DNA of 32,621 nucleotides from Deltaproteobacteria bacterium (GTDB lineage Bacteria; Desulfobacterota; Dissulfuribacteria; Dissulfuribacterales; QOAL01), in contig JALVJO010000110.1 in assembly GCA_027028245.1 (NCBI GenBank), positions 1 through 32,621 of the forward strand. Direction: 5' to 3'. The first letter of the stretch is position 1, and every line of letters starts with the position of its first letter. Below, piece by piece: positions 5-21,460 of the stretch. The notes below the pieces were generated by a model. The model did no database searches. It was not told where the DNA came from and saw nothing but the letters and a program-made list of their open reading frames with translations. A program made the translations under genes and the position numbers.

Positions 5-3000
5 TCAAGCTGCCTGGAGCTCTGTAGCGGCTTTATGTGTGGTTTTAAGGTCACAAATTTTTATTTTTGAACCAGCTTGTCTCTGAGCCGGTGCACCGCT
101 CCAGGAACTATCTGACGGAAGCGTTTCCCCTTTCATGACAAGGGAAAGTGCATCAAGTCTCACCCTGTCTTCCAGGATGGAATCGTAGAGGATTACTGCA
201 CGAGGCCCAACAGAGCATCCGTTTCCTACCTTGAGTCTGGACATTTTCATGACCCTGTCTTCAAAAAGATGGGTCTGGAGAGAGCATGCCATGCCAATAC
301 TGCAGTCGTCACCAATGGAGACGAGATCAAACTCGGTCATGAAGGTAGTCTCAATGTAACAACGTCTTCCCACCTTGGCGCCAAGGAGCCTGAAAACCAG
401 GGCTGTAAAGGGGGTCCCTGTAAGAAAGAGCAGCAGGGACGGCACTACCACGTTCTCATAAAGGCCTGTTACAAGCTCAGTGCGCCTTACAAATGTGCTC
501 CACAGAGGCTGTACCTGGGGCCTGTATGTGCCAATGAGAAGCCACTTAATGGCTGCCACCACGGCCGTATTCAGGAATCCAGCCAGAAGGACAAGGATGG
601 ATGAGCCAAGGGTTGCTACCGGCAGGCTGGTATTTACAAGCAGCCATGAAACAAGAGGAAATACCCACGAGACAGCGAAGAAGTAGAGGCTTGCTGGCCC
701 GGTTGCCCTGAAGAACTCGTAAAAGAGCCTCTCAATAATCCGCCTTGTGGTCGGCTTAAATGTCTCTGTCTCCGGAAAATACAGGCTTTCCTGTCGTCGC
801 GGCAGGAAGATTGGCGGAGATCCAAGCCATGTGGTGCCTGGTTTGATGGTGCCTCGAGGAGGGAGTGAAAGTACACCAATGAGGCATTCATCAGGAAGAA
901 CGGTTCCCTCTGGTACAAAGGCGCTGTTTCCAACAAAGGTTCTCCAGCCGATTTTTGTTGGCCTGACCCTCATCCTGCCCCTGAATACACACGCAGGTCC
1001 AACACTTGCTGCATCGGCTATGAAGCTTTCACCATCGATTTCCAGAAGGTCTGGAGTGATGTTTGCAATTGTGGAGATTTCAGCAAGTCTGCCTATCTTG
1101 GCACCGAGGGAGCGAAGAAATGGCAGGAGGTAAAGGGTTGCATAGAGGGAGTCGCACAGTCTAAGGCTCATGCCTATGAGGCTGTCAACAAACCACTTTC
1201 TAAGATAAAACAAGCTGTTGACCGGATAGATTCCAGGCTTAACCCTTGGAAGCACCGTCCATTTCCCGGTAATGATCAGGAGGCAAAGGCTCACAACGAA
1301 GGACAGGCCTGCCAGCGGTATGCCAAGGAAGAGCCAAGGTGCGCCAAGATGTAAGTCAATGGCCGCAAGGATGGCAAAACCTGGAATAACGGACAGGGAA
1401 AGGACCGCAAATGCTGCAATTATTGCCATAATAAAGCCTGGTATCAGGAGGACATTGCTCACGCAATGTGTCTTTCGAGAGGGAGTGTTCTTAAAATCCT
1501 CCATCTCCCTCTTAAAATCGTCATCAGGTTCAGCAGGGGAGCCTGCCCATGCCTGCCCCCGTGGTATTTTTGATCCACTTGACAAAAGGGACTGATTGCC
1601 GAGGAGGGCTTCATCCTCCATGCGAGAACCTGGCATTATCACAGAGTTGGGCCCCACGTAACAGCCTTTTCCAATGCTGACCCTATTGAGTATCAGAACT
1701 CCGTCCCTGACTTCATATGCATATATATGGGTGCCTATATCAACGGAGGTGTTGTCTCCTATTTCTATGAGATCCATGCAGTGGAGAAGGTTCGTCCTGA
1801 TGAGGCAGTTCCTGCCTATCGTGGCACCAAGTGCCCTTGCATAGGGGGCAAAGAGCGGGGTGCCAGTAAAAAGGGACAAGGGAGACATGTGGACAACCCG
1901 CTCTGTTATCCACCAGCGGAGAAAGAAAAGGCCCCAAAGCGGATACTCTCCAGGCGTTAACTTCCCCATTACAACCCGTTTGAACAAGATCGGGAGTATA
2001 AAGGCCAGCAACAACTCAGCGCCAAGGCCCTTTGCCAGATATGATGCTGCAAGCCCGGTGGCATGGATGTCTTTTTCTAGGACAAGAAGGGACTTTTTTA
2101 AGAAGAAGAGCCCTGGCATTGTAAAGATGAAACCGTAAAGCAGGAGGGCCGAAAGCTGTCCAATACCACAAATCCAGACCCGCCTGTTACTATATGTCCT
2201 GATAAGGCCTTCACGCTGTCTCCTTCTGTTATCTTTAATCGGGCAAACCCGTGTTTTTACGGTTTTTTTAGAGGCTGTGGTGATAAGTTTTTTCGCAAGG
2301 CAGCGTACAGATGGGTTGGCGTAGATATCTGCAAGGCCTAGTTGTGAAAAATCCTGATCTCTTCTTAGCATGGAAACCAGCCTTGCAGCGACCAGGGAAT
2401 GACCTCCAAGGTCCTGGAAGAAATCATCTGTCACAGACACGTTTTCAAGTCCAAGGGCCTTTGCAAAGATGGCTGCAAGCCTCTTTTCAAGGTCATTTGC
2501 AGGCGGGATAAACTCCTTGTGGTTGAGGGCAAGCCTCTTCCCAAAGGGTGCTGGCAGACGCGATCTGTCCACCTTACCGCTTGGAAGCATTGGTATCTCA
2601 TCAATACGTTGAATATAGGCAGGTATCATGTAGCTTGGCAGCTTTTGTCCAAGGGTTCTCAACAATGCCTCTATTATCTCCCTATCATCCTTTTTGCAGC
2701 CAGGCTTCATGGTGAACCAGGCGGCAAGCTCGGTCATTCCTTCAGAAGGACTGTATGTGGATACAACGGCCCGTTCCACGTCTGGAACAGTGAGCATGAC
2801 GGATTCAATCTCGCTGGTTTCGATCCTGTAGCCCCGGATCTTTACCTGTGTATCCATGCGCCCCAAATACTCAATTTCACCCTCTTCGTTAATGCGTCCC
2901 AGGTCTCCTGTGCGGTAGATGCAGCCAGGCGGCTCTGTCTTTGATACTGTTGGATCAGGTATGAATTTTTCTGCAGTAAGTCTTGGCCTGTTAATGTATC

Positions 3001-4042
3001 CCCTTGCCACTCCTATGCCGCCAATACATATCTCCCCTATTTCACCCCGGGGAACTGGCCTGAGGTTCTCATCCATTATTTCTACCCTGTAGGAGGGAAG
3101 TGGCCTTCCTATGGTGACCTTTTTGCCTGGCACAAGTTCACTATATGTGGCAGTGACTGTTGTCTCCGTTGGGCCATAGGTATTCAGAATGCGGCGCCCC
3201 GGCCTGCTCCACCGGCGCACGAGTTCAGGCGAGCATGCCTCGCCGCCAACTATTAAAAGCCGCACTGAAGGAATGTCATCCTCCATGGTGGCGAGGAGGG
3301 TGGGAACGCAGCAAAAGACGCTGACCTTGTTCTTTGTCAAAAATTCTCCAAGCTCAGGCCCTATGCGACGGCAGTCTGTTGGGCCTGGTACGATTGCAGC
3401 ACCTACAGTCAGGGGAATCCATATCTCCTCGATTGAGAAGTCAAAGGCAATTGTCATCCCTTGGTAGATCCTGTCTTCCTTTTTATATTGGTAGACCTGT
3501 TGTGCGACCTTCACGAAGTTGCAAATGCTTGGATGTTCAATGGCAACACCCTTGGGTTTTCCAGTGGTCCCAGAGGTGTAAATTATATAGCAAAGGTTGT
3601 CTCTGGCAGGAGGCAGGGTGTGTTCGTCAATAGGCTCTGGGCTAAGCAGTGAGATTTCATGCGCTTCTTTGTCAAGCACAATGGCCTTTACGCCTTTTGC
3701 CATGACCGATTCTGCAATTTCAGAGGTGGTAATTACTGCTGAGACATGGGCATCTTCCATTATGAAGTGCTTTCTGTCCCTGGGGAATCCAGGGTCAAGG
3801 GGCACGAACGATGCATGCACCTTCAGCACTGCAAGCAGGCTTACGTAGGTATTTACAGAGCGTATCAGGTGGATGGCCACCCGGTCGTCTGGCTTAATGC
3901 CCGAATTCAACAGGTGTCGGGCAAGGCGGTTGGCCCTCTGGTCAAGCTCTTCATAGGTTATCTTCCTTTTGCCCGTTATTATTGCAGTTCGATGCTTGTT
4001 GGCCCTACAGCACTGCTCGAACAGATGATGTAATCGTTCCAT
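5..4042 (-). CDS. Pls-like membrane-bound nonribosomal peptide synthetase (A-T-three C-terminal TM/LbH modules)
   Basis: Predicted to activate one amino acid as adenylate, load it on its carrier domain and polymerise it at the inner membrane, as in the epsilon-poly-lysine synthetase (Pls) family. The adenylation domain covers about residues 1-500: core A3 YTSGTTGKPKG at 155-165, A5 NTYGPTE at 287-293, A7 YRTGDLGR at 376-383, and the catalytic lysine of PSGKVDR at 490. The carrier motif LGGHSL has its phosphopantetheine serine at 549. Three repeats of a membrane-segment pair plus a hexapeptide-like soluble domain follow (about 625-838, 865-1078, 1112-1320), the Pls layout. There is no condensation or thioesterase domain. 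The start at 4042 was chosen because AAAGGAGG lies just upstream; an in-frame ATG at 4111 has no better signal. The gene overlaps the upstream transferase by 64 bp. Family call is firm; the product is inferred. Confidence 0.92.
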   Translation of the reverse strand: MERLHHLFEQCCRANKHRTAIITGKRKITYEELDQRANRLARHLLNSGIKPDDRVAIHLIRSVNTYVSLLAVLKVHASFVPLDPGFPRDRKHFIMEDAHVSAVITTSEIAESVMAKGVKAIVLDKEAHEISLLSPEPIDEHTLPPARDNLCYIIYTSGTTGKPKGVAIEHPSICNFVKVAQQVYQYKKEDRIYQGMTIAFDFSIEEIWIPLTVGAAIVPGPTDCRRIGPELGEFLTKNKVSVFCCVPTLLATMEDDIPSVRLLIVGGEACSPELVRRWSRPGRRILNTYGPTETTVTATYSELVPGKKVTIGRPLPSYRVEIMDENLRPVPRGEIGEICIGGIGVARGYINRPRLTAEKFIPDPTVSKTEPPGCIYRTGDLGRINEEGEIEYLGRMDTQVKIRGYRIETSEIESVMLTVPDVERAVVSTYSPSEGMTELAAWFTMKPGCKKDDREIIEALLRTLGQKLPSYMIPAYIQRIDEIPMLPSGKVDRSRLPAPFGKRLALNHKEFIPPANDLEKRLAAIFAKALGLENVSVTDDFFQDLGGHSLVAARLVSMLRRDQDFSQLGLADIYANPSVRCLAKKLITTASKKTVKTRVCPIKDNRRRQREGLIRTYSNRRVWICGIGQLSALLLYGFIFTMPGLFFLKKSLLVLEKDIHATGLAASYLAKGLGAELLLAFILPILFKRVVMGKLTPGEYPLWGLFFLRWWITERVVHMSPLSLFTGTPLFAPYARALGATIGRNCLIRTNLLHCMDLIEIGDNTSVDIGTHIYAYEVRDGVLILNRVSIGKGCYVGPNSVIMPGSRMEDEALLGNQSLLSSGSKIPRGQAWAGSPAEPDDDFKREMEDFKNTPSRKTHCVSNVLLIPGFIMAIIAAFAVLSLSVIPGFAILAAIDLHLGAPWLFLGIPLAGLSFVVSLCLLIITGKWTVLPRVKPGIYPVNSLFYLRKWFVDSLIGMSLRLCDSLYATLYLLPFLRSLGAKIGRLAEISTIANITPDLLEIDGESFIADAASVGPACVFRGRMRVRPTKIGWRTFVGNSAFVPEGTVLPDECLIGVLSLPPRGTIKPGTTWLGSPPIFLPRRQESLYFPETETFKPTTRRIIERLFYEFFRATGPASLYFFAVSWVFPLVSWLLVNTSLPVATLGSSILVLLAGFLNTAVVAAIKWLLIGTYRPQVQPLWSTFVRRTELVTGLYENVVVPSLLLFLTGTPFTALVFRLLGAKVGRRCYIETTFMTEFDLVSIGDDCSIGMACSLQTHLFEDRVMKMSRLKVGNGCSVGPRAVILYDSILEDRVRLDALSLVMKGETLPSDSSWSGAPAQRQAGSKIKICDLKTTHKAATELQAA

Positions 4043-4827
4043 GTTCCTTCCTCCTTTGACAATTTTGCCATTTCGTTTCGGTTTAAATGAGGGATCCGAC
4101 TTTTTAGACAAAGGTCCGGATCAAAGAGATGAAAGCTTACTTGTGGCCTTTTGAGGCCTTCCAGCCGAAGGGTGAGCGACAGGCTGAAGGCCCGGCCTGA
4201 AAAGTCAATAATTCGGTTTAAGAAAAATAGAGATTTATCAACCCTTCTGCCCCTGTCGTATAAGATTTCAGGAGGCTCAAGCCTGGCCTGGACGTTGCGT
4301 GGGTCGAGTTTTAGACCCAGGCCAAGTAGTTTCAGATAAGACTCCTTGAGGGTCCAGAGGCGTATTAGTTCCCTGGTTCTAAAGGCAGGGGCAATTTTTG
4401 TTATTTCCTCACGTTCCTCCTTTGTGAGTACGGCCTCCATGTCTTCAATAGCCAGTTTTTGATCCAACGGCTCGATGTCTATGCCAAGGCAGTGGCGCTC
4501 AGAGACGGCGACAACTGCCAGATCATCTGCATGGGATATGTTGAAATGGACGCCCCTATCTGTCACAGGCTTGCCGCCTGGAAGAGTGGTAATAAGCCAC
4601 TCAGGGGGCTTCCTCCTTACAGCTGATGCTGCTGAAAGGGCCACTTTTGTCACCGCCCTTGAAACTACGAAACGGGATGCGTCAAAAGGGCGTGAAAAGG
4701 TCATGGCCCTTGCGAACTCATCTTGATTCAGGAGTTGGCCGTACCTTGATAGATCAGGGAAAGGAGGTATATGAGCAAGCCATACTTGAATTTTATCTTT
4801 TTTAGACATTATTTTACTAATAGCCAT
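3979..4827 (-). CDS. Sfp-type 4'-phosphopantetheinyl transferase
   Basis: Transfers 4'-phosphopantetheine from coenzyme A to the conserved serine of carrier proteins. The 282-residue length is near the Sfp/EntD group. Visible motifs are GIDIE (Mg/CoA-binding Asp and Glu) and the WTLKESYLKLLG block near residues 158-170, both diagnostic of the family; an upstream HFNISHADDL block matches the usual FNLSHS motif. The 3' end runs 64 bp into the synthetase start, so the two are almost certainly co-transcribed and this enzyme very probably primes serine 549 of that synthetase. The start at 4827 follows AAGGA; an ATG at 4809 lacks a ribosome site. A sigma-54 promoter lies about 100 bp upstream. Confidence 0.93.
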   Translation of the reverse strand: MAISKIMSKKDKIQVWLAHIPPFPDLSRYGQLLNQDEFARAMTFSRPFDASRFVVSRAVTKVALSAASAVRRKPPEWLITTLPGGKPVTDRGVHFNISHADDLAVVAVSERHCLGIDIEPLDQKLAIEDMEAVLTKEEREEITKIAPAFRTRELIRLWTLKESYLKLLGLGLKLDPRNVQARLEPPEILYDRGRRVDKSLFFLNRIIDFSGRAFSLSLTLRLEGLKRPQVSFHLFDPDLCLKSRIPHLNRNEMAKLSKEEGTWNDYIICSSSAVGPTSIELQ

Positions 4828-4925: not shown

Positions 4926-4941
4926 GCAATGATCGTGCCAA
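4926..4941 (-). promoter_or_regulatory. Sigma-54 (-24/-12) promoter for the transferase-synthetase operon
   Basis: The minus strand reads TTGGCACG-ATCA-TTGC, an exact match to the sigma-54 consensus (TGGCACG, four bases, TTGC) with correct GG-to-GC spacing. It points at the transferase start at 4827; transcription would begin near 4914 and leave a leader of roughly 87 nt. The gene just upstream (5175-6575) is a sigma-54 activator. The surrounding 4828-5174 gap is AT-rich and holds no convincing gene. Confidence 0.85.
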
Positions 4942-5174: not shown

Positions 5175-6575
5175 CTAATCTTCCTTCCTGATTTTTATGT
5201 CCAGCTTCTTCAGCTTTTTATAGAGGTTTGTCCTGATAATGCCGGTCTGTCTTGCCGCAAGGCTCACATTTCCCTTGCACCGTTCCAATGCCGTGAGGAT
5301 GTATTCCCTTTCAAAACGTCTTTTTGCATCTGAGTATGGAAGCATCCTGTCGTCTTCCACAAACTTCATGCTTCGTGGCAGGGCTGAAAGTCTTCCATCG
5401 TAGTTGAGGTAACGGGTCGTTATCTTGTGGGAGGTTTCAAGGGATACTGCCGCCTCGATCACGTTTTCAAGCTCTCTCACGTTTCCGGGCCACGGGTAGC
5501 TGCACAACAACTCCATAGCCATTGGCGTAAAACCCTCTATCTTCTTGCCCGCCTCCTTGGCGTATTTTTTAAGAAAGTGCATTGCAAGAAGGGGTATGTC
5601 CTCCACCCTGTCCCTGAGGGGCGGAATGGTTATGGTCAGGACGTTTAGACGGTAATAGAGGTCTTCACGGAATCGTTTTTCCTCCATTGCCTTTTTTAGA
5701 TCCTGGTTTGTGGCCACAAGCAGCCGCACATCCACCTTCACGGGCGTGGTGCTTCCAACAGGAACTATCTCCCGTTCCTGCAGGACCCTCAGCAGCTTGG
5801 CCTGGATACCTGGGCTGATCTCAGCGATTTCGTCCAGAAAGAGGGTGCCGCCGTTTGCCATCTCGAAAAACCCCTTCTGGGTCTTGTAGGCGCCGGTAAA
5901 GGCACCCTTTACGTGTCCGAAAAGCTGGGATTCAAGCAGGGTGTCCTGGAGGGTGGCAGCATTGACGCACACTATCTTCTTGTTCTTGCGGGGGCTGTTG
6001 TAATGGATGGCCTTGGCCACAAGTTCCTTGCCTGTGCCGCTCTCACCCTGGATGATCACTGTACAGCGGCTGTCAGCGGCCCTGCGGATGAGTTCAAAGA
6101 GGTCCTGCATGGGCTTGCTCTTGCCTATTATGTTGTTGAAGCCGTAGCGTTCCTGTATTTCCTCCCTGAGCATGGACATCTCTATCATGGTCTTACGCTT
6201 GTCCCATGCCTTTGCTGTCAGGCGTATCAGATCGTTTTTCTGAAATGGCTTACCTATAAAATCGTAGGCTCCATATTTCATGGCCTCAACCGCCGTTTCT
6301 ATTGTGCCGTAGGCGGTTATCATTATGGCTACGATGTTTTCATCGTGCTTTTTTATATGTTTTAGAAGGGTTATCCCGTCGTAGCCTGGCATCTTGTAGT
6401 CGAGAAACACAAGATCGATGTCCTCCTGCTCAACTATCTTCAGGCCCTCGGCCGGGTCTGTGGTGCTTATCACCTGGAAGCCCTCCTTTTTAAGGAGACT
6501 TTCAAGAAGCTCGCAAAACCCCTGCTCATCATCCACCACCAAAACCTTGCCCTTTGGTTCCATGGTCCTATTCAT
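5175..6575 (-). CDS. NtrC-family sigma-54-dependent response regulator
   Basis: Cytoplasmic transcription activator. The receiver domain occupies residues 1-130 with phospho-acceptor Asp59 (FLDYKMPG) and acidic pair DDE near 15-17. The AAA+ domain follows with Walker A GESGTGKE (177-184), the GAFTGA loop that contacts sigma-54 (224-229) and Walker B TLFLDEI (244-250). A Fis-type helix-turn-helix (NVSLAARQTGI...LYKKLKKL) ends the 466-residue protein. All residues needed for phosphorylation, ATP hydrolysis and sigma-54 contact are intact. The start overlaps the end of the kinase gene by 8 bp and uses GGGAG inside that gene, indicating translational coupling to its cognate kinase. A sigma-54 promoter lies just beyond its stop, before the transferase-synthetase operon: the likeliest target. 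Confidence 0.96.
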   Translation of the reverse strand: MNRTMEPKGKVLVVDDEQGFCELLESLLKKEGFQVISTTDPAEGLKIVEQEDIDLVFLDYKMPGYDGITLLKHIKKHDENIVAIMITAYGTIETAVEAMKYGAYDFIGKPFQKNDLIRLTAKAWDKRKTMIEMSMLREEIQERYGFNNIIGKSKPMQDLFELIRRAADSRCTVIIQGESGTGKELVAKAIHYNSPRKNKKIVCVNAATLQDTLLESQLFGHVKGAFTGAYKTQKGFFEMANGGTLFLDEIAEISPGIQAKLLRVLQEREIVPVGSTTPVKVDVRLLVATNQDLKKAMEEKRFREDLYYRLNVLTITIPPLRDRVEDIPLLAMHFLKKYAKEAGKKIEGFTPMAMELLCSYPWPGNVRELENVIEAAVSLETSHKITTRYLNYDGRLSALPRSMKFVEDDRMLPYSDAKRRFEREYILTALERCKGNVSLAARQTGIIRTNLYKKLKKLDIKIRKED

Positions 6576-8115
6576 CTTTCTCCCTGTGATTTTTTATGGG
6601 GAAAATAATGCTGAAGGTGCTACCCTGTCCATGGATACTTGTCACCTTCAGGATGCCCCTGTTTCTTCTAATGAGTTTCCAGCAGATGGATAGACCGAGT
6701 CCCGTGCCCTCTTTCTTGGTCGTATAAAACGGCCTGAATATCTTTTCTATTTCTTCCTGGCTGATTCCGCAGCCTGTATCAGTCACTTCTATCTCAACTG
6801 CCTGATCCCCTGGTTTCATGTTGGTCTTAACACGTGGAATCCTAAGAGAAAGGGCGCTTCCCGGATCTTCCATAAGCAGGGTGCCAGATTGAACCACAGG
6901 TGCAGTGAGCATAATGACATCCTCCCTGGTAAGGGTGACAATGCCGGTGGTAATGGTAATTTGGCCCTCTTTTTCAATGGATTCCTTCGCGTTTTTTATA
7001 AGATTGATCAAGACCTGCTCCAGCTGGTCAGGGTCCGCCTGGATTTCTGGCAGGTCCTCCGCAAGGTTGCACACCACTTCTATACCCTTTACCGGGGGGT
7101 AGAATACGAACTGCACTGTCTCCCTTACGAGCCTGTTCACGTCAATCTTGCGAAAGACCGGCTCCTGAGGCCGGGCAAAGGCCAGGAGGTCCTGAAGTAT
7201 TTTCTGGCAGCGTATAAGCTCCTGTTCCATTCTCTTGAGCTTTGGATAGTGTGCATGGTCCGTGGGCACTTCATCTAGCAGATGCTGGGTAAATCCCAAT
7301 ACTATGCCCATTGGATTGTTGAGTTCGTGGGATATGCCTGCGGCGAATTCTCCCAGGGCCGTGAGTGTGCCGGCCCTCAAGAGATATTCCTGGGTGGCCT
7401 CAAGATCCTGGGTCACCTTCCTGAGGGAACGCCTTAGGCCGTCGGCTTCCTCTTCAAGCCTGCTGCACCTGTCTTTGGATGCGGCAAGCTCACTTTCCAT
7501 CTTCTTGAACCTGTCCATTGCCAGCCGCAACAGCTCCTTAAGATCCTTTGTATTGCTGGTGCTTGAGACCCCTGCAATCCTGGATAAGAGGGGTCGGCAG
7601 CCTTCCATTTGGCTGCGGGGCCTGAGCAGGAAAAAGGCGAATGAAAAGGTGATGGTAAGAAGGGAAAACAGGGCCAGGGCCCATACGAGCCAATTGCCCG
7701 TGGTGGCCTGCCAAAGGAGGTCCCTGTTTGTACTGATCACAACCACTGCCTCTGAGGAAGGGATGACCTCGTAACCTTTCTCTATGTTTTCTATTCTCGT
7801 GTTCGATTTTAATGCAAACTCCATGTCTTGCAGCAGGTCCCTTCCAAGGGCCGGGCTGCCTTTATGGAGCCTTGAAACATCCTTGCTGAAACAGGAGATG
7901 TTAAGCAGTGCATTGGAGTCGAGTCTGCAAAGCCTTTGCACATACTCTGGTGATGACGCACAGGCGGAAATGGCGTCTGAAAGCTGTGATATTTCAAGTT
8001 CTGCCATTTTCCCGGCATGCCACCTGATCACCATGAACATGATTCCTGCAAGCAGGCAGAGCAGGAGGCATGTTCCAAGGATCAACTGCGTAAATTCACG
8101 TCTGTTTCCCGGCAT
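6568..8115 (-). CDS. Membrane sensor histidine kinase (NtrB/ZraS-like)
   Basis: Cognate kinase of the overlapping sigma-54 regulator. Two membrane helices (about residues 10-31 and 142-164) flank a periplasmic region of about 110 residues containing several cysteines. A coiled coil (about 200-245) leads to the dimerisation/phospho-acceptor site ISHELNNPMG with His263, then the ATPase domain with N-box NLIKNAKES, G1 DTGCGIS and G2 GTGLGLS. The periplasmic domain matches nothing I can name; its ligand is unknown. The start at 8115 was chosen because GGAG lies 8 bases upstream; an ATG at 8121 is only two bases from it. It lies 37 bp after the FecR-like gene, in the same apparent operon. Confidence 0.93.
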   Translation of the reverse strand: MPGNRREFTQLILGTCLLLCLLAGIMFMVIRWHAGKMAELEISQLSDAISACASSPEYVQRLCRLDSNALLNISCFSKDVSRLHKGSPALGRDLLQDMEFALKSNTRIENIEKGYEVIPSSEAVVVISTNRDLLWQATTGNWLVWALALFSLLTITFSFAFFLLRPRSQMEGCRPLLSRIAGVSSTSNTKDLKELLRLAMDRFKKMESELAASKDRCSRLEEEADGLRRSLRKVTQDLEATQEYLLRAGTLTALGEFAAGISHELNNPMGIVLGFTQHLLDEVPTDHAHYPKLKRMEQELIRCQKILQDLLAFARPQEPVFRKIDVNRLVRETVQFVFYPPVKGIEVVCNLAEDLPEIQADPDQLEQVLINLIKNAKESIEKEGQITITTGIVTLTREDVIMLTAPVVQSGTLLMEDPGSALSLRIPRVKTNMKPGDQAVEIEVTDTGCGISQEEIEKIFRPFYTTKKEGTGLGLSICWKLIRRNRGILKVTSIHGQGSTFSIIFPIKNHREKDE

Positions 8116-8152
8116 GGTCATAACTCCAATTACCGTTTATCCCCCGGTTTCA

Positions 8153-9310
8153 TCAGTGATGGCCTGCCCTTGAAGGTGTTTCCCTGCCAGGCTCGCGGTG
8201 TGATGATGACGGCACGTGTTCGTGTAAGGACAGGCTTGGGCCTGCCTGACTGCTATAGGAGGTATGTTGAGCAGAGGGCGCTTCATGTACCATGCCCCTG
8301 TCTGTCATATTGTGCTGATCCATGCCCGAATGCTTGACGTCCGTGTGGTGGTCGCTCATGTGGTGATGATCCGAAACTTCATGGTGGCTTTCATGTACGT
8401 GAGAGTTCTGCCCTCCGGCTTCGGTCTTTGATGAATGGCTTCCACGGTCTTCGTAATGCATTCCCTTTTCATTTGCCGCCTGTGTTTTCTCATTGCCATT
8501 GCTGTACCTGTAGGTGCGCGGTGGCTCAATGTCTGTCAGGACGTCCGGGGAGTAGCCCCTTGAAAATACGCCTCTGTAACGGCTGCTCGTCTCTGAAAGG
8601 GACTCCTGTAAGCCAAGGCCCAGGTGAAGTTTAAGACACTCTTCATACCTTTTGCGTTCCTTTTTGTTCATGGGCCTTGGCGGCAGCAGGGGGCGTTTGG
8701 GTTCAATTCGCACTATGAAGTCTGGGCCCACCATGACCGGTTTTCCGGCAAGGCCCTTTTGCCACGCTATTACGTGGCCCTTAAGGACTGCAATGTACAG
8801 TACTCCTGGAACCGACAGGTCCATGGCAAACCGCGTGCCAGTAACCCCGGCCGTGCCTATTGGGGTGTCCACCAGAAGGGGCAGTCCGGAAAAGGAAGGG
8901 GAGACGTAAAAGAGTGCCTTGCCCCTTTTGAGTTGTATAAGCGTGGCGGTTCTGCAAGAGTCTTCCTGGCAGGCGCCGGGGCGTGCCTTTGAAAGGGCCT
9001 TTTTTAGCCTTTCGAGCATACTCCTGACCAGCATTTCGCTGTTCTCCTTCATGCGTACTATAGCACCGCTATCAAGGAGCAGGTCCACTGAGGCCCCTGA
9101 AAGCGTCCTGACCCTGGCCCCTTCTGGTAGCTCCATCCATTTGCGGCCGGCCTCCCAAGGGCCATTGCCACCTTTGGAAACGAGGACTGTGCCGGAGACA
9201 CGGACCACTAGTATCTTTCCCCAGCCTCCATGGGCATCTGCACCAAAAAGGCATGAAAACACCAGTAATGCCGTAACTAACCCTATGGTGTTAATAATAT
9301 GTCTTCTCAT
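8153..9310 (-). CDS. Exported FecR-domain protein with His-rich C-terminal tail
   Basis: 385 residues with an N-terminal signal peptide (cleavage likely after ADA, residue 26). The FecR-like region spans about 35-205, including LPEGARVRTLSGASVDLLLDSGAIVRM and DTPIGTAGVTGTRFAMD, the typical sequence of this domain. The rest is low complexity: about 20 histidines among residues 285-385, with clusters such as SDHHHMSDHHTD, mixed with Asp, Ser and Met. The tail looks able to bind transition metals, which is inference. Classical FecR is an anti-sigma partner with a cytoplasmic N-terminus; this form instead looks periplasmic, as in FecR/CHASE2 gene pairs. It starts 4 bp after the CHASE2/HD-GYP stop and precedes the kinase by 37 bp. 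Confidence 0.88.
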   Translation of the reverse strand: MRRHIINTIGLVTALLVFSCLFGADAHGGWGKILVVRVSGTVLVSKGGNGPWEAGRKWMELPEGARVRTLSGASVDLLLDSGAIVRMKENSEMLVRSMLERLKKALSKARPGACQEDSCRTATLIQLKRGKALFYVSPSFSGLPLLVDTPIGTAGVTGTRFAMDLSVPGVLYIAVLKGHVIAWQKGLAGKPVMVGPDFIVRIEPKRPLLPPRPMNKKERKRYEECLKLHLGLGLQESLSETSSRYRGVFSRGYSPDVLTDIEPPRTYRYSNGNEKTQAANEKGMHYEDRGSHSSKTEAGGQNSHVHESHHEVSDHHHMSDHHTDVKHSGMDQHNMTDRGMVHEAPSAQHTSYSSQAGPSLSLHEHVPSSSHREPGRETPSRAGHH

Positions 9311-9314
9311 TTTC

Positions 9315-11486
9315 TCACCCGCATAAAATAGAATTTTTCATCTCCACGATGGTCTTCACCACCGTGGCATCGAACTGAGAGCCTGCCCTTTGCTGGATCT
9401 CTGAAATGGCCTGTTCCTTTAAATCCTCGATTTCTGCGTCAGGGTTTGCCTGAATCTTTTTCTCCATGATAGAGACAAAAGCCTCGGCCACAGCGAGAAT
9501 CCTGCCCCCAAGACTTATTTCTTCCTGAGCAAGGCCGTCTGGATAACCCTTTCCGTCGTAACGTTCATGATGCTGGCGTATCAGCGGGGCACAAGCAGCA
9601 AGCTGCGGTGCCTTTGACACCATCTCCGCCCCTGTGACCGGATGGCTTTCGATCCATATCCGCTCCTCCGGGCTCAGGGCATCTTGTTTCATAAGTACAG
9701 TGTCCGGAACGCCTGCAAGGCCGATATCGTGCAGCAGGCCAGCCTTGTAAATAAGTTCCACCTTGTCTTCTTCAAGTCCCATGCGAAGAGCGATTTTCCT
9801 TGCGATTTCAGCAACCTGGCGGGAATGTTCAAGAAGCCCGGGGGCCTTTCTGCTAAGGGTATCCAGTAAGATATCGAGTGTTCCCATGCACTCTCTCTGA
9901 ATCTTCTCAAGAAGCATCCTGTGCTGCAGTATGAGTGCAGAGCCACGGGCCACGTCCCTGGCCTGTTCGAGCCTGTCTCTTGGAATGTCCTTGTCAACAG
10001 GTGAAAGGAGTAGGTACAGGCCTGGCCGGTCAGGGCCCGAGTCAACGGGAATAATGTGCCATCTGCCTTCCCTTGTCCTGACCCACTCTTTTGTCGCGCT
10101 TTCCAGGTCGTTTTCTTCTGCCAGCATCTCAATATCTTCAATGGGAATGAGGCCTGGTTTTCCGGCATAATGGACCCGGCGTTCTCCCTCAAGTCCCTTA
10201 AAGATTCCAATTACACATTGGGCCCCGGCGGTTTCGGCAACAATTGAGCACAGATCCTCCATTGAAGATGTATCTTTCATCTGAGTTATCTTCTTGATAC
10301 GATCCCTCTGGCGTTTGAGCTCGGCCCTGTAGCCATAGGCCCTGGCGGCCATACCCATTATTATGGAAGTATTCCAGGTGATTGCCATGGGGGTCATCGG
10401 GATAACGGCCAATAAGAATTTCATGCACGCCGCACCTATCAGCCAGAGAACGGGGGTGCTGGCAAATACAAGGGCCAACGCCCATTTTAGTGGGATTATC
10501 TGGCTCAAGATGCCCCCCAACAGGCCAAGCACAATGGTCAAAAGCAAGGTAGCACTGGCTGGAAGTTCACGGGGGATTTCCCTCCCTATCAACGTGCTCG
10601 TAACATTCGCCATGACCTCTACACCAGCCATTCCGCCTTTTCTTGCAAAGGGCGTGGTCCACTGGTCGGAGATGCCGGTTGCAGTGACACCCACCAAGGC
10701 CATCTTGCCGGAAAATATCTCAGGGGGCACCCTGCCTTGTAAAACGTCCCAGGCGGAAACCCGCGGAAAGGACCCGGGAGGGCCAAGGTATCTGATAAGG
10801 AAAAAGCCGTGGCTGTCAAGGGGGATGTCAAGAGTGCCGAGCCGAATGCACCCCTGACTAAGCACAAGGTCATTGGGTTTGAGTCTATTCCAGAGCGCGG
10901 CAAGTTCGATACCCAGTGAGGCAAAGGAGGCATGTGAATCGTAGATGAAGGCCGGGATCCTTCTTATGATCCCGTCGCTATCGTAAACGAGGGTTGCATG
11001 TCCCAAGGCGGCTGCAGCCTTTGAAAGAAGATATGATGGCAGGCGGATGGATTCTACCTGGAGCCCGTACCTATTATGTTTTCTGCCACCTGTTTCAGGT
11101 GTATAAACAGGCAAGGCCGTTGGTACCTGTTTCATTGCCTGGGCAAGGACACGGTCCGAAGGACGCGGCCTGTCAAGTAGAAGGTCTATGGCTACAAGCC
11201 TTGCCCCAGAGTTGGCAAGGACGTCAACAAGCCTGCCGTATGTGCTCCTTTTCCAGGGCCAGGGGCCAACGTGATCTATTGAGTTGTCATCAATTGCCAC
11301 GATGATGATGGGGACTTGGCCCCCTGATGCTGCAAGCCTTGTCCAGGAATCAGAAAATACGTAATCTAGTCCTTTTACGTAAGAATCAGTGACTGGGCAG
11401 ACCGAGAGGAAGAGTGCAATTAGTGCTCCTGCACTCCCTGTCATAAGGACATTCCATAATCTGTTGGTTAAAAAAAACTTAGCCAC
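9315..11486 (-). CDS. CHASE2 sensor / HD-GYP domain protein, likely cyclic-di-GMP phosphodiesterase
   Basis: An N-terminal membrane helix and large extracytoplasmic CHASE2 domain (about residues 10-300, with VAIDDNSIDHVGPWPW and VAIDLLLDRP) are followed by three membrane helices (about 310-380), a short coiled coil, a GAF-like region (about 405-510) and a complete HD-GYP domain (about 530-723). Catalytic residues are present: LLHDIG (His586-Asp587), QHHERYDGKGYPDG (His639-His640, GYP 647-649). Expected activity is hydrolysis of cyclic di-GMP. I chose the GTG at 11486 (AGGA seven bases upstream); a TTG at 11537 would add 17 residues with no good ribosome site. First gene of the four-gene minus-strand unit ending at the sigma-54 regulator. 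Confidence 0.92.
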   Translation of the reverse strand: MAKFFLTNRLWNVLMTGSAGALIALFLSVCPVTDSYVKGLDYVFSDSWTRLAASGGQVPIIIVAIDDNSIDHVGPWPWKRSTYGRLVDVLANSGARLVAIDLLLDRPRPSDRVLAQAMKQVPTALPVYTPETGGRKHNRYGLQVESIRLPSYLLSKAAAALGHATLVYDSDGIIRRIPAFIYDSHASFASLGIELAALWNRLKPNDLVLSQGCIRLGTLDIPLDSHGFFLIRYLGPPGSFPRVSAWDVLQGRVPPEIFSGKMALVGVTATGISDQWTTPFARKGGMAGVEVMANVTSTLIGREIPRELPASATLLLTIVLGLLGGILSQIIPLKWALALVFASTPVLWLIGAACMKFLLAVIPMTPMAITWNTSIIMGMAARAYGYRAELKRQRDRIKKITQMKDTSSMEDLCSIVAETAGAQCVIGIFKGLEGERRVHYAGKPGLIPIEDIEMLAEENDLESATKEWVRTREGRWHIIPVDSGPDRPGLYLLLSPVDKDIPRDRLEQARDVARGSALILQHRMLLEKIQRECMGTLDILLDTLSRKAPGLLEHSRQVAEIARKIALRMGLEEDKVELIYKAGLLHDIGLAGVPDTVLMKQDALSPEERIWIESHPVTGAEMVSKAPQLAACAPLIRQHHERYDGKGYPDGLAQEEISLGGRILAVAEAFVSIMEKKIQANPDAEIEDLKEQAISEIQQRAGSQFDATVVKTIVEMKNSILCG

Positions 11487-11946
11487 TGCCGATTCCTGAA
11501 CATTTTTGCAATTTTTCCCCTGAATTGGCAACAGCAAGCCCTATTCCAAAGACCTTGTCCCATTTCAGGCATAGGCATTTCATCTCCGCATAGCGCCTTC
11601 TATGTATATTTTTATCGCATTAAAGCCTTTTTCCTCTTTATTGCACGGGCAGCATCATCTGAAAAGGTTTTATCAGGGAAGGCCAGCCAAGTGTAGTTTT
11701 TTTTATACACAACGTATCCCTTTTACTACCCTCTTAGTCATCGGGTGCAGGACAGTGGCCTGCTATTGTTAGGGGGCATGCCTGGATCCGGTGGCTTCTG
11801 GCTTAATTCCATTCGGTTTTCAACAAGGCATCTTATGTGCAAAAAAACGAGAACTATAATAACGTATCTTTATGATGCTATAAGGTGTGAAAAAGGGAGT
11901 TTTTTTCTCTTTTGTCACCATTAATCGGAAAGGGGGGGCATGTGAT
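11487..11946. other. Divergent intergenic region
   Basis: About 460 bp between the CHASE2/HD-GYP gene and the outer-membrane gene must hold both promoters. On the plus strand a consensus TATAAT stands at 11855-11860, but no good -35 is at the right distance. A small dyad GCAGG...CCTGC lies near 11746-11762. I looked for a cyclic-di-GMP (GEMM) riboswitch and a sigma-54 promoter and found neither. No convincing gene. Confidence 0.4.
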
Positions 11947-13233
11947 ATGAGGATGAGAAAAATCGGTCTTTTTATTATTTGGGTTTGTCTTATGACATTT
12001 CTTTCACCAGGACAGCTACTTGCTGAGCTATCCGTTACGGCGACCCCACGTATTACTACGGATGGGTACTATGATGACAATATTTACTTTGCGAGCAAGG
12101 ACGCCGTATCAGATTTTGTAACACGTTTGGCACCGGGATTAGATACTTCCATTTCAGCAGAAACCTGGGGCCTAGACGTTGATTATGAGATGCAACAGGT
12201 GTTTTACCATCACGAGTCAGCGCGTAACTCCCTGAACCATTTTCTGGATCTTGACGGATCAGTCGACCTGCCGGGCAAGTGGGAGCTGTCCGTGGAGGAC
12301 AGTTTCATACATTCCAAGGACCCGGTGCAGATTAGCAGGTCCATAGGCGCCATCAGCTATGAGAACCTGAAATACGATTATAACGAGGGCGTTGTACGGC
12401 TTCACAGGTCCTTTAGAGACAAGGGCAGCATGGAAGCGGGGTACAGGAGCATGTTTTTCAAGAATAGATCTTCTCTTGTTGCAGATACGGTAAATCATTT
12501 CCCGTATGTTGATTTTCGTTACTGGGTGAGACCCCAGTATGGCGTTGGTATAGAGGGAGGCGCAAATATCGGGCTTTTTGATTACTCAGACGACTTCAGC
12601 GAACCAAGAGGGGCTCTCACCCTGTTTTACCGTCCTGGTCTCGATACCACTGTAAACGTAAGAAGCGCTGTATCTTCCATGAATTTTTCAGGTACAACCC
12701 CTGACTATGACATTTATGATTTCACTGCCGGGGTTACCCATGCCTTCAGCGAAACAGCAGGATTAACGGTTGGATTGGGATATTACTTTCAGACGCGCCT
12801 TCATGGCAGTGGCCTGGATAACTATGACGGCATAAGCTACCAGGCTCGGTTTCATCAGGATACGAACAGGTATTCCCTGAAAATAGAGGCCAGCAAGGGA
12901 TACGACGAGGTCTATTTTGATGGTGAGGACCTGGGCTTTTCAAGCTGTTATGTCGTTGGTTTTGATCTGGATTATGCCTTAACCAACAGGATCGAGCTGA
13001 GCTTAGAGTCATCATACCGGGACGACACCTTTCCCTATGCAGGAGGCTGGGATGAAAAGATAAAGGAAAGGACCTGGGATGTGTCCATGGAGGTTTACTG
13101 GCATCTGACCAGATGGCTTGACGCAGGTATCTCCCTGTCGCACTGGGACAGGGACGCCAGTGAAACCGATTATGAGTACCTTGACAACAGGGCCATGTTC
13201 ACCCTGCGCCTTTCAAAGGAGTTTACCTGGTAA
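11947..13233 (+). CDS. Outer-membrane beta-barrel protein, function unknown
   Basis: 428 residues with a signal peptide (MRMRKIGLFIIWVCLMTFL..., cleavage near LLA). The body alternates polar and aromatic residues in short strands (DGYYDDNIYF, GLDVDYEMQQVFYHH, YSLKIEASKGYDEVYF) and ends in FTW, the terminal aromatic signature of outer-membrane barrels. It resembles the putative beta-barrel porin type found near polysaccharide export genes; the substrate is unknown. The start at 11947 follows a G-rich ribosome site AAAGGGGGGG; an upstream in-frame start at 11887 would put a hydrophilic stretch before the signal peptide. It stands alone, divergent from the signalling operon and convergent with the next gene. 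An outlet or anchor role for the synthetase product would be speculation. Confidence 0.82.
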   Translation: MRMRKIGLFIIWVCLMTFLSPGQLLAELSVTATPRITTDGYYDDNIYFASKDAVSDFVTRLAPGLDTSISAETWGLDVDYEMQQVFYHHESARNSLNHFLDLDGSVDLPGKWELSVEDSFIHSKDPVQISRSIGAISYENLKYDYNEGVVRLHRSFRDKGSMEAGYRSMFFKNRSSLVADTVNHFPYVDFRYWVRPQYGVGIEGGANIGLFDYSDDFSEPRGALTLFYRPGLDTTVNVRSAVSSMNFSGTTPDYDIYDFTAGVTHAFSETAGLTVGLGYYFQTRLHGSGLDNYDGISYQARFHQDTNRYSLKIEASKGYDEVYFDGEDLGFSSCYVVGFDLDYALTNRIELSLESSYRDDTFPYAGGWDEKIKERTWDVSMEVYWHLTRWLDAGISLSHWDRDASETDYEYLDNRAMFTLRLSKEFTW

Positions 13234-13366: not shown

Positions 13367-13933
13367 TCAGTTGCTTGTCCCATTGGACAGGGGGTCCATC
13401 TCGTAGTTGTCACAGATGCCGTCTCCATCAACATCCACGAAGTTTTTCATGCCCATTCTCATATAGGCCTCCCTTGTCTCAAAACAGTCGCAGATGCTGT
13501 CCTCGTTTTCATCAATACAGGGGCCTACTCCGAGATTACGGAACATGTCAGTGTCCTGGACTATGTCGCAAACACCGTCGCCGTTTTCGTCCACAAAGGG
13601 CATACCATGAGTAAACTCTTCATATTTCCTGGGATTTACGAATAGATCATCGGAAAGATCCACATCGAAGGGCGGGTAATGCTGAGGGCCCATTCCGAAT
13701 CTGAAGTTAGCCCTTTTGATATGGTGCATCATGGTTGCATTGGTTGACATCTCACCACGATGCATATTGTGGTGCATCATGGTTGCATTGGTTGACATCA
13801 TCTCGCCATGATGCATGTTGCGGTGGGTGTTGGTCTCACGTGCACCATTGGTTCCCCTCCATGCCTGTACCTGCGAGGAGAACATGATCAGTGAAAGTGT
13901 GAAAAAGATTGCCGGTACTATCTTCTTGGTCAT
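13367..13933 (-). CDS. Exported Met/His-repeat protein with EF-hand-like calcium loops
   Basis: 188 residues. A signal peptide ends near VQA (residue 24). Residues 37-71 are a tandem repeat of about 16 residues (NMHHGEMMSTNATMMHH then NMHRGEMSTNATMMHH) very rich in Met and His, ligands typical of copper or other soft metals. The C-terminal half has three Asp-rich loops: FVDENGDGVCD (113-123), CIDENEDSICD (139-149) and FVDVDGDGICD (166-176), like single-loop calcium sites of dockerin/thrombospondin-3 type, each with a Cys. The strong ribosome site AAGGAGG precedes the start. Metal binding is inferred from composition; no family name is recognised. Confidence 0.8.
   Translation of the reverse strand: MTKKIVPAIFFTLSLIMFSSQVQAWRGTNGARETNTHRNMHHGEMMSTNATMMHHNMHRGEMSTNATMMHHIKRANFRFGMGPQHYPPFDVDLSDDLFVNPRKYEEFTHGMPFVDENGDGVCDIVQDTDMFRNLGVGPCIDENEDSICDCFETREAYMRMGMKNFVDVDGDGICDNYEMDPLSNGTSN
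13723..13799. repeat. Tandem 48-bp coding repeat
   Basis: An identical 29-bp block (beginning GGTGCATCATGGTTGC) occurs at 13723-13751 and 13771-13799, 48 bp apart, that is 16 codons. It encodes the duplicated Met/His motif of the exported protein and looks like a fairly recent in-frame duplication. Confidence 0.85.
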
Positions 13934-14408: not shown

Positions 14409-15401
14409 TTAGTCGTCTACCGGATCTGTCAAAAGTATAACCTGGTTAGCCGGTTTTGACCATGAACACTCAAATGGATCATCTAAATCTATATCCAAAC
14501 TGATTACCCCATGGAACCTGTCAGAAAAACTCTTGTGTAACGTTCCGGCCTTAACCGCCCTAAAAGAGGAGTCCTGGCAATTTGGGCAGGGTCCGAAGAA
14601 TATAAGCGTAGGCATGTCATCATCCGAGAATATTGATGCAGTCTTGGAGTAACTTACTGCCCAGCGAGGTTCACCCTGGTCATCGTAGAAGTAGGATACT
14701 ACAGCGACGTTATCACCTTCTGTATCTACAGAGTAACCGTAACCCGACTCTTCACTGTTGTACCAGAGGCCCGTTAGGCTGACATGGGTACTGGTATGAT
14801 CAACATCATGATCGGTATCATGGTCCGTGTCGTGATCGGTATCATGATCTACATCATGGTCGGAGTCATGATCAGTATCGTGGTCCACATCGTGATCGGT
14901 ATCGTTGTTTGTGTTGGAGTCCATGTCCTGATCAGTGTCATGGTCCGTGTCATAATCAGTGTCATGGTCGGTATCCACATCATCCATATTAAATTTGACA
15001 ATGGATTCGTTCCCGCCTTGCCCGTTTAACGTCCACTGGAACGTTCCCGTGGTTTTGGTCAAAAAATTAACCGTCATTGTACCAACAACAGAGGGTACTG
15101 CCGTAGCACCTTCCCAGTGATACTTATTTAAGGGTGCAGACCAGGTATGGTTACCAGAAAACGGACCAACAGCAAGATACCAGATGGGAGTCCCATCTTG
15201 CTCATACGTGTACCAAACTGCTGCCAGAGTGGAGTCATCCAACTCAAAGTCTATGCCATGTCCAGGCTTGTTCTTATCATACCAAAGACCTGACTTGGGT
15301 TTGAATTCAAGCTTTACATCATCATCTGAAAAAGCTATTTGACAAAGATTAATCCAGACAAACATTGCTGCCAGGATAAGGAATAGGTATTTTGTTTTCA
15401 T
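14409..15401 (-). CDS. Exported two-module GLWY protein with Asp/His repeat linker
   Basis: 330 residues. A signal peptide ends near AFS (residue 25). Two related modules each start with a similar signature: SGLWYDKNKPGHGIDFEL (37-54) and TGLWYNSEESGYGYSVD (210-226), each followed by a WY-rich strand segment (VWYTYEQDGTPIWYLAVGP; VSYFYDDQGEPRWAVSY). Between them residues 142-202 are an almost uninterrupted Asp-Thr/Val-Asp-His repeat. The second module has a CPNC pair (272-275). The linker is strongly acidic with regularly spaced histidines and could bind calcium or transition metals; this is inference. I recognise no named family. AAGGAGG precedes the start, and a plausible promoter lies at 15465-15493. 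Codon choice in the repeat varies, so protein sequence rather than DNA is being kept. Confidence 0.78.
   Translation of the reverse strand: MKTKYLFLILAAMFVWINLCQIAFSDDDVKLEFKPKSGLWYDKNKPGHGIDFELDDSTLAAVWYTYEQDGTPIWYLAVGPFSGNHTWSAPLNKYHWEGATAVPSVVGTMTVNFLTKTTGTFQWTLNGQGGNESIVKFNMDDVDTDHDTDYDTDHDTDQDMDSNTNNDTDHDVDHDTDHDSDHDVDHDTDHDTDHDTDHDVDHTSTHVSLTGLWYNSEESGYGYSVDTEGDNVAVVSYFYDDQGEPRWAVSYSKTASIFSDDDMPTLIFFGPCPNCQDSSFRAVKAGTLHKSFSDRFHGVISLDIDLDDPFECSWSKPANQVILLTDPVDD
14796..14978. repeat. Degenerate 12-bp minisatellite coding for Asp-Thr/Val-Asp-His
   Basis: About fifteen units of 12 bp within the exported two-module gene. Units differ mostly at third positions (Asp as GAC or GAT, His as CAC or CAT), with some Thr/Val/Ser changes and an imperfect stretch coding QDMDSNTNN near the middle. 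Confidence 0.85.
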
Positions 15402-18770: not shown

Positions 18771-20864
18771 ATGCGTCTGTTAGGTAAGCTGAACTTTTGG
18801 CTGTTGGCTGACATAGCTGCATGTTTTAAGGCCATGATATTTGAGGCAGGCCGGTTTGCACCCTTGTCCTTGGTCTTTTTTTCATGCCTTTTTCCAAACC
18901 CGGCAAGTGGTGCCTCACCGGTCCAGCCTGATGAAGGGTTGTTTTCAATGAGCCTGGAAGAACTCATGAATCTTGAGGTCACCTCTGCATTTAAGAAGCC
19001 CCAGAGCATAAAGGACACCCCTGCAGCAGTGTTTGTTATTACCCAGGAAGACATCCGCAGGTCCGGTGCCTCTTCGATCCCCGAGTTACTTCGTATGGTC
19101 CCGGGGGTTAACGTGGCAAAGATAGATAACGGCAACTGGGCTGTGTCGATCAGGGGATTTAACGGCATTTTCTCAGACAAGCTCCTGGTGTTGATGGATG
19201 GCAGGACACTTTATGATCCGCTCTTTTCAGGGGTTTTCTGGGATGTTCAGGATACAATGCTTGAGGACATCGATCGTATTGAGGTAATACGGGGGCCTGG
19301 TGCCAGCAGTTGGGGCACCAATGCTGTAAACGGTGTGATCAATATTATCACAAAGGATGCTTACGCCACCAGGGGGGTGCTGTTGAGCGGCGGCGGGGGC
19401 AGCATTGAACACGGTTTCGGCTCTGGAAGACTTGGTTCCAAGGTCGGTGATATCGGGGCTGTGCGTTTTTACGCCAAGGCCTTTGAGCGAGGAGCACAGG
19501 AAAAGAAAGACGGGGGAAGTGCATGGGATGATCGGCGGATGCTGAGATCGGGTTTTCATTCCAACTGGCATTTTGCCTCCAATGATTCTGCCGCTGTTCA
19601 GGGAGATATATATACCGAAGAAGTCACCTCACGAGTACTTGGTTTCAACGAGTCCTTCTCTGAGCGCAGAATCATTGAATCCGACATTCCCGCATCAGGC
19701 GGGAACATACTTGTCAGGTGGAAGCATCTTTTTGATAAGGAGAACGAACTCAATTTCCAGTTCTATTATGACCACACTGACAGAAAATTTACCGACATGG
19801 GCAGGGAATCCCGTGATACCCTGGATTTCGAATTCCAGCACCGTTTTCCATTGTTTGGCTTCAATGACATCCAGTGGGGCTGTTCCTACAGGCATACCTG
19901 GGATGATATTCCCATAAAGCACGGATATAATGTCGGCTCGTTCCAGCCAAGTTCCAGGAAGGACGATCTTTTTGGTTTCTACGGCCAGGATGAGATGGAT
20001 TTCTTCCAGGACAGGCTGCGGTTTTTGCTGGGTGTCAGGCTGGATCACAACAACTATACCGGTATGGAGGTGGAACCCACGGTGAGGGTGATCTACAGCC
20101 TTAATTCCCGTCAGGATTTGTGGGCAGCCTTTTCCAGGGCTGTCAGGGTGCCCAGCCGTTACAACCGTGATGCCATCTGGCTGCTTGGAACAGAAAGAGA
20201 TCTTACCAGGCAGCTTCCCATCGAAATGGCTTTCAAAGGGGACCATGATTTCAGGAGCGAGAAGCTGTGGGCTGCAGAAATCGGCTACAGGTGGACTGCA
20301 TGTACCAGGCTTGCCTTTGATATTACAGGTTTTGCAAATTTTTACGATGATCTTTTTACTGCCGTGGCCGGTGAGATATTTGACCATCATGGAATGTTCA
20401 TCCAGCCCATCCTGCCTGAAAATTATGGAAAGGCCAATAACTTCGGCATTGAACTTACAGGTAATTTTAATCCTCTCGACTGGTGGAGGCTGGAACTTTC
20501 CTATTCCTATCTGAACACCAATTACTGGATAGAATCCGAACACAGGGCAGGTTCAGGACTGCCTGCTGAATACATGGAGGCGCCGGACCACCAGGTTTCC
20601 TTCAGATCCAATATGAATTTTACTGAAAAATTGGAACTGGACGTATGGCTCCGTTATGTTTCAAGTCTTTCAAAACTCGATATACCTTCTTATACAGGTG
20701 TTGATATAAGAGTCGGGTGGCATCCTCTTGAGAGTCTGGAAATTTCCGTAGCTGCAAAGAATCTTCTGGATCCTCGACACCCTGAGTACAAGGACGATTT
20801 CTTGCAGCTGATATCCACTGAAATCCCGAGATCTGTTTACGCAAAGGCAGTCTGGAAGTTTTGA
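18771..20864 (+). CDS. TonB-dependent outer-membrane receptor
   Basis: 697 residues. After a long N-terminus with a hydrophobic signal stretch (APLSLVFFSCLF, cleavage near ASG) come the short SMSLEELMNLEVTSAFKK segment and a complete plug domain: PAAVFVITQEDIRRSGASSIPELLRMVPGVNV, SIRGFNG, LVLMDGRTLYDPLFSGVFWD, RIEVIRGPGASSWGTNAVNGVINIITK. The 22-strand-type barrel follows and ends in a terminal Phe (AVWKF). The substrate is unknown. A 4-bp overlap with a YfiR-family gene, then a hybrid kinase, is a recurring arrangement for this receptor type. The start at 18771 follows GAGAGGAG at short spacing; an ATG at 18834 would give a shorter signal peptide and remains possible. Confidence 0.92.
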   Translation: MRLLGKLNFWLLADIAACFKAMIFEAGRFAPLSLVFFSCLFPNPASGASPVQPDEGLFSMSLEELMNLEVTSAFKKPQSIKDTPAAVFVITQEDIRRSGASSIPELLRMVPGVNVAKIDNGNWAVSIRGFNGIFSDKLLVLMDGRTLYDPLFSGVFWDVQDTMLEDIDRIEVIRGPGASSWGTNAVNGVINIITKDAYATRGVLLSGGGGSIEHGFGSGRLGSKVGDIGAVRFYAKAFERGAQEKKDGGSAWDDRRMLRSGFHSNWHFASNDSAAVQGDIYTEEVTSRVLGFNESFSERRIIESDIPASGGNILVRWKHLFDKENELNFQFYYDHTDRKFTDMGRESRDTLDFEFQHRFPLFGFNDIQWGCSYRHTWDDIPIKHGYNVGSFQPSSRKDDLFGFYGQDEMDFFQDRLRFLLGVRLDHNNYTGMEVEPTVRVIYSLNSRQDLWAAFSRAVRVPSRYNRDAIWLLGTERDLTRQLPIEMAFKGDHDFRSEKLWAAEIGYRWTACTRLAFDITGFANFYDDLFTAVAGEIFDHHGMFIQPILPENYGKANNFGIELTGNFNPLDWWRLELSYSYLNTNYWIESEHRAGSGLPAEYMEAPDHQVSFRSNMNFTEKLELDVWLRYVSSLSKLDIPSYTGVDIRVGWHPLESLEISVAAKNLLDPRHPEYKDDFLQLISTEIPRSVYAKAVWKF

Positions 20865-21460
20865 AAAAAAGGATTGACACATACAGGGGCCATTGGGATC
20901 AGGCCCTGCCGAGTCGTGTGGTTTCGGCAGTTTATAACCCGGCGGCATGGATAATTGCCGTGTTTTTCCTCTATGCGTTTCACGTGCATTCATCGGCTGC
21001 AGGCTTCCATCACCCAGAGACAGATGTAAAGGCAGCTTTTATCTATAATTTTACCAAATTCATCCAATGGCCCGAGTCGTCCTTTAGAGACGATTATCTT
21101 GTTATAGGTTACTGGGGCAGGGGAACCATGGTGGATGCCTTGCGAAAACTTGAGGGCAGAAAGAGCCTGGACAAGGAAGTGAAGATAAAGGAGGTTTCGA
21201 ATCCATGCGATATTCAGGGCGTTCAGGTACTTGTAATGGCAGAGGAACAGTTTATTGATAAAAAAACACTGAGCAGCCTTGAAAAAGGACATGTGCTTAC
21301 CATCTCCGAGGGCAAGGAGGCACTTGAAAGGGGCGTGATAATTGCACTTTTCAAGGAAGGCAACAAGATACGATTTGCAGTAAATCTCAAAAACGCAGGC
21401 AGGAGCGGGCTCAAGATCAGCAGCAGGCTACTGAAACTTGCAAAATTCATCGTTCAATGA
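20861..21460 (+). CDS. YfiR-family periplasmic regulator (DUF4154)
   Basis: 199 residues with a signal/anchor helix ([14 protein letters not shown], about 29-42). The mature domain shows the family pattern [19 protein letters not shown], then LVIGYWGRG, a [16 protein letters not shown] segment, a [11 protein letters not shown] segment and the closing [25 protein letters not shown]. In Pseudomonas YfiR is a periplasmic protein that restrains the diguanylate cyclase YfiN; here the downstream partner is a kinase instead. The start is a TTG overlapping the receptor's TGA (TTGA); GTG codons further in are alternatives. Its end overlaps the kinase start by ATGA. Confidence 0.88.

Follow-up and report, generated by a model that had tools for sequence, protein, structure and literature searches.

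A Pls/PosA-family synthetase with a pocket of the basic amino acid type lies in a conserved, putatively σ54-regulated gene cassette of an uncultured Deltaproteobacteria lineage

The window, the 32,621-nucleotide stretch of DNA analyzed here (contig JALVJO010000110.1), opens with a gene for a Pls/PosA-family synthetase (positions 5..4042, minus strand). The reading frame starts at an ATG at position 4042 behind a strong ribosome-binding site (AAAGGAGGAAGG) and stops at 7..5; the contig ends directly beyond the stop codon, and the 1,345-amino-acid protein is complete. An initial annotation, made from the DNA sequence alone, had given the coordinates of this gene exactly but overlooked that it lies on the minus strand. 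Its assignment to a Pls-like family was upheld by the TIGR02353 Pls/PosA family terminal domain, which scored 594.4 bits against a curated NCBIfam cutoff of 423.1.

An adenylation (A) domain with intact core motifs occupies residues 1 to 500 (2543..4042, minus strand; TIGR01733, 433 bits) and was also recovered in an AlphaFold2 model superposed on PDB structures. It is followed by a carrier (T) domain (2291..2482, minus strand; PF00550) with a GGHS motif, in which the phosphopantetheine site, Ser549, is conserved in at least 95% of the aligned homologues. The rest of the protein is a polymerizing membrane domain (29..2257, minus strand; TIGR02353 and AlphaFold2) of paired transmembrane helices and three left-handed beta-helix repeats, and a Pfam scan of the synthetase identified no classical condensation or thioesterase domains. 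AlphaFold2 modeled this C-terminal half with a pLDDT of 91 and a pTM of 0.90 as a helical pair plus left-handed beta-helix in three copies; the modeled repeats matched hexapeptide acetyltransferases with Z scores of 10 to 14, and six transmembrane helices with three acyltransferase-like beta-helix repeats are predicted overall. Profile scans, alignment, and model thus bore out the A-T-three-module arrangement proposed earlier, and as judged from its sequence the enzyme has the full layout of the cationic homopolymer synthetases. The third repeat carries the motif QTHLFEDRVMKM (residues 1256 to 1267; 242..277, minus strand), invariant in 87/87 homologues. It includes H1258, the sole invariant histidine of the C-terminal half in these 87 proteins, which we propose as a candidate catalytic base.

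The initial annotation had overlooked both a phosphopantetheinyl transferase gene coupled to the synthetase and a σ54-type regulatory cassette upstream of the pair. The transferase, of the Sfp/HetI 4′-phosphopantetheinyl type (3979..4827, minus strand; PF01648), reads from 4827 to 3979 and overlaps the start of the synthetase by 64 bp; the two genes also adjoin in relatives carrying a window-type synthetase, in Desulfobulbaceae, and in genome G014. Upstream of the pair lies a −24/−12 promoter sequence that matches the σ54 consensus perfectly (TGGCACgatcaTTGC; 4926..4940, minus strand), preceded by a response regulator of the NtrC/AtoC type (5175..6575, minus strand) in which Pfam and motif checks identified the GAFTGA loop that contacts σ54. 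Both features expected of a σ54 operon, the −24/−12 promoter and a GAFTGA activator, were found. Further upstream on the same strand are a sensor histidine kinase (6568..8121; Pfam), a FecR-domain protein with a His-rich tail (8153..9310; PF04773) whose position is syntenic in relatives, and a protein combining a CHASE2 sensor with an HD-GYP domain of the c-di-GMP phosphodiesterase type (9315..11537; PF05226 and PF13487, with HD and GYP motifs present). In the direction of transcription, the cassette thus runs CHASE2-HD-GYP, FecR, histidine kinase, σ54 activator, σ54 promoter, transferase, synthetase. A divergent gene (11887..13233, plus strand; PF10082) encodes a BBP2_2 beta-barrel outer-membrane protein and is syntenic in G001 (L150, 748-2055).

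Perfect σ54 sites occurred nine times in the 2.86-Mb genome to which the window belongs, and a reversed control pattern occurred 0 times. The site that separates regulator from transferase recurs unchanged in L040 and nearly so in L041 (TGGCATcattaTTGC). Since two exact sites arose in 4/100 shuffles of the window, the genome count and the conservation are the stronger evidence for the promoter. A second perfect consensus (8840..8826, minus strand) precedes the start of the kinase gene by approximately 700 bp; it falls within the FecR gene and was left out of the promoter argument. RpoN was not found in the draft assembly of the window's own genome (96% complete) and was present in 8/8 relatives tested.

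The order of the cassette is kept in four species, with contig breaks interrupting two of them. The four upstream genes of G001 and G018 follow the window order until the contig stops, with the transferase-synthetase pair on a separate contig; we infer the junction between regulators and pair in these two genomes, and it was seen directly in L040. In G011, a contig starts within this synthetase, of which it encodes the final 124 residues, and continues with hydrogenase-like genes in convergent orientation; judging from this contig start, nothing downstream of the synthetase seems to belong to the operon. The histidine kinase was identified in 4 of 19 genomes of the family, all with a window-type synthetase; this corresponds to 4/5 synthetase genomes versus 0/14 others (P = 0.0013, a value that ignores relatedness).

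Beyond the cassette, two proteins that matched no Pfam family (13367-13933 and 14409-15401, both minus strand) carry His/Met-rich or Asp/His-rich repeats (DTDHDTDH...) and are possibly secreted metal-binding proteins. A TonB-dependent receptor, a YfiR/HmsC-like protein, and a CHASE8 hybrid sensor kinase are encoded consecutively at 18771-24315 on the plus strand. An Rfam scan of the window identified two tRNAs and nothing else.

The specificity pocket of the A domain (2573..3442, minus strand) was read from homologue alignment columns as D201, F202, E205, C244, I264, G266, T288, V296, T297, and K490, the same ten residues (DFECIGTVTK) that had previously been assigned by eye. PosA of Acinetobacter baumannii (L136, a plasmid record) served as a positive control for the column mapping. 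Read through the same columns it gave DMEHNGTVSK, the published code, which had been tested against crystal structures and mutants (PMC10522769); this agreement validates the mapping. Additionally, the A-domain model superposed on the PosA crystal structure (8g97_B) with a Z score of 52.5 and an rmsd of 2.1 Å over 388 residues. The end points of this superposition are consistent with a constant numbering offset of +16, by which D201, F202, E205, T288, and T297 would be equivalent to PosA D217, M218, E221, T304, and S313. A text search of the literature for the pocket codes returned no matches.

Some codes for neutral residues likewise have a glutamate at pocket position 3. Among the 83 homologues that could be read at this position, 82 carried Glu and 1 carried Asp, so its presence in the window is not a chance occurrence. 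Two of the PosA residues, D217 and E221, are essential, with T304 and S313 in an assisting role and M218 setting a limit on chain length; Glu221 binds the terminal amine of the substrate and is reported to be conserved across the Pls/PosA family (PMC10522769). The window pocket has both the Asp at position 1 and the Glu at position 3. The earlier suggestion that an acidic residue signals a basic substrate gains from E205 being the equivalent of this amine-binding Glu, which supports a diamino substrate. A basic amino acid is therefore a well-supported prediction for the substrate class.

PMC10522769 describes an inverse size relation at position 2, in which larger substrates go with smaller residues: Phe for diaminopropionate or diaminobutyrate, Met for ornithine, and Ala for lysine. 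Phe202 fits the pattern given for poly-diaminopropionate (PDAP) and poly-diaminobutyrate (PDAB) synthetases and is neither the Ala of Pls nor the Met of PosA. Under this rule, which is applied here as stated in that paper, the window enzyme would be expected to prefer diaminopropionate (Dap) or diaminobutyrate (Dab). The initial annotation had listed lysine, ornithine, and diaminobutyrate; the basic class stands, but with Phe at position 2 lysine becomes the least likely of the three.

Pockets of the form DFExxGTVTK were found in Actinomycetota, Desulfobulbaceae, the family of the window, Planctomycetota, Cyanobacteriota, and other groups. Within a sample of 395 genomes from the phylum, a TIGR02353-type domain exceeded the cutoff in only 3, all from one family. 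A tree built with a quick method grouped the window clade with Desulfobulbaceae and a Chloroflexales MAG; a Paenarthrobacter plasmid gene also fell with this clade, on a long and unsure branch.

Several gene neighborhoods recur among relatives elsewhere. One actinobacterial operon (L051, 11963-14972) encodes a Pls-like synthetase, a DDAH/arginine-dihydrolase-like protein, BPL_N, and an HGSNAT-type membrane acyltransferase. Similar operons with varying gene order were found in L053, L054, L057, L059, L069, L091, L107, and L109, and BPL_N and/or HGSNAT neighbors were present at most actinobacterial loci. Loci with a sister pocket, DFECLS[AV]VTK, have a gene of the diaminobutyrate aminotransferase type directly downstream (L055, 11893-13401; L084, 11949-13451; L058; L088) and are likely poly-diaminobutyrate clusters. 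SbnA-like (cysteine-synthase-like) neighbors proposed for L087, L104, and L110 were dropped; family scans identified the genes of L087 and L110 as histidine kinases.

The most likely monomers are ornithine, or diaminobutyrate or diaminopropionate made by another route, and the two options are about level. A synthetase for poly-diaminobutyrate or poly-diaminopropionate, with the monomer supplied by a noncanonical aminotransferase or other route, would account for Phe at position 2, the reported mark of such enzymes (PMC10522769). The sister-pocket loci point the same way: all four have a class III aminotransferase directly downstream, and both of the two that were scanned exceeded the NCBIfam Dat cutoff. 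Supply genes argue against it. In the 96% complete draft genome of the window (G000), the best match to Dat scored 225 bits against a cutoff of 402 and that to SbnA 225 bits against 350, and neither gene exceeded its curated cutoff in the genomes of close relatives. Dat was present in 22 and SbnA in 12 of the 42 genomes with DFExxGTVTK pockets; 18 had neither, among them the complete genome of Singulisphaera acidiphila. The genome of the window does encode an unassigned class III aminotransferase, on contig C189, but this gene does not track the synthetase: it occurs in G002, where the synthetase is missing, and G018 has the synthetase yet no match of comparable strength. We regard this substrate assignment as a serious candidate at somewhat less than even odds.

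An enzyme for poly-ornithine, like PosA and drawing on arginine biosynthesis, is given the same standing. Its monomer is universally available, and Thr288 and Thr297 correspond to Thr304 and Ser313, the delta-amine contacts of PosA. In 11 actinobacterial loci of the same pocket type, an arginine-dihydrolase/DDAH-like gene comes next after the synthetase (after BPL_N in L109), a neighbor that by its sequence hints at arginine or ornithine chemistry. The reaction is only putative, however, since the one such protein scanned (from L051) fell under every curated NCBIfam cutoff, and no PF19420 protein was found in the genome of the window. Phe in place of Met at position 2 should also shorten the pocket.

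A neutral or guanidino substrate, or transfer of a single aminoacyl group instead of polymerization, is improbable: one Bdellovibrionales homologue prefers arginine (PMC10522769) and HGSNAT-like membrane N-acyltransferases adjoin the synthetase in actinobacterial relatives, but both acidic pocket residues and the entire polymerizing domain are conserved. Slightly less probable still is a lysine enzyme of the epsilon-poly-lysine type: Glu at position 3 is shared with lysine enzymes, but these carry Ala at position 2 (PMC10522769), and in the tree the Pls-like DAES pockets branch separately.

We favor, with a probability of roughly 75% for the explanation as a whole, a Pls/PosA-type synthetase of a cationic homo-poly(amino acid) that is σ54 regulated and uses a small diamino substrate, lysine being unlikely. 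The neighboring transferase would arm Ser549, and the A domain would adenylate ornithine, diaminobutyrate, or diaminopropionate, holding the alpha-amine through Asp201 and the side-chain amine through Glu205 with Thr288 and Thr297. The monomer, once loaded onto the T domain, would then be polymerized iteratively by the pseudo-trimeric beta-helix domain embedded in the membrane, with a probable part played by His1258 in the third repeat; the product would be a short polycation with isopeptide linkages, located at the membrane or outside it. Arming, adenylation, loading, and iterative condensation are steps of characterized homologues (PMC10522769, PMC4668381). Expression would be turned on by the adjacent kinase and σ54-activator pair at the TGGCAC-N5-TTGC promoter. 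More tentatively, DFExxGTVTK synthetases may polymerize a monomer that is new to this type of enzyme or made by an unknown route; in the lineage of the window, the polymer would then be an envelope component whose production is controlled by a σ54/HD-GYP cassette of its own.

PosA, the delta-poly-L-ornithine synthetase of A. baumannii, shares the architecture, the Asp and Glu, the polar T/S-type contacts, and the A-domain fold (Z score, 52) of the window enzyme, but has Met rather than Phe at position 2, is approximately 35% identical over its full length, and is encoded in a single-gene operon in contrast to the multigene setting seen here. Pls, the epsilon-poly-L-lysine synthetase, likewise combines A and T domains with three tandem C domains and transmembrane helices but differs in Ala at position 2. 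PDAP and PDAB synthetases of Streptomyces and relatives have the same Phe and Glu at positions 2 and 3 (PMC10522769), whereas the window genome lacks above-cutoff matches to the known Dab/Dap supply genes expected with such enzymes. The architecture and the pocket logic are known already; the regulated cassette and the identity of the monomer are what is notable. That a Phe-type pocket occurs in a genome with no above-cutoff Dab/Dap supply gene bears directly on the published pocket-size rule. Natural cationic homopolymers are few in number and antimicrobial, and to our knowledge little is understood of the part they play in biology. Here, an uncultured "Deltaproteobacteria" lineage has a synthetase together with its own transferase, its own sensor system, and a σ54 promoter in a self-contained cassette, which offers a defined unit for expression and a defined signal to seek.

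The Desulfobulbaceae loci L044, L045, and L048 encode synthetases with approximately 52% identity to that of the window and the pocket DFECIGTVTK (the first three positions are missing in L048). As in the window, a phosphopantetheinyl transferase adjoins the synthetase in L044 and L045, but in these two an outer-membrane protein gene follows the synthetase. No kinase/σ54 cassette was seen in the examined flanks of the Desulfobulbaceae loci. L044 and L045, together with L147/L148 of G014, represent a second locus type consisting of transferase, synthetase, and a MetA-pathway-type beta-barrel protein; the G014 locus continues with a subtilase-domain protein with a low-complexity start and then an ECF-type sigma factor. 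A further Pls-like gene was found in a Methanothrix MAG (L064, 3-3815); its pocket, DFEGEGTITK, is unusual, and downstream of it lies a transferase-like gene, its archaeal origin being putative and dependent on binning.
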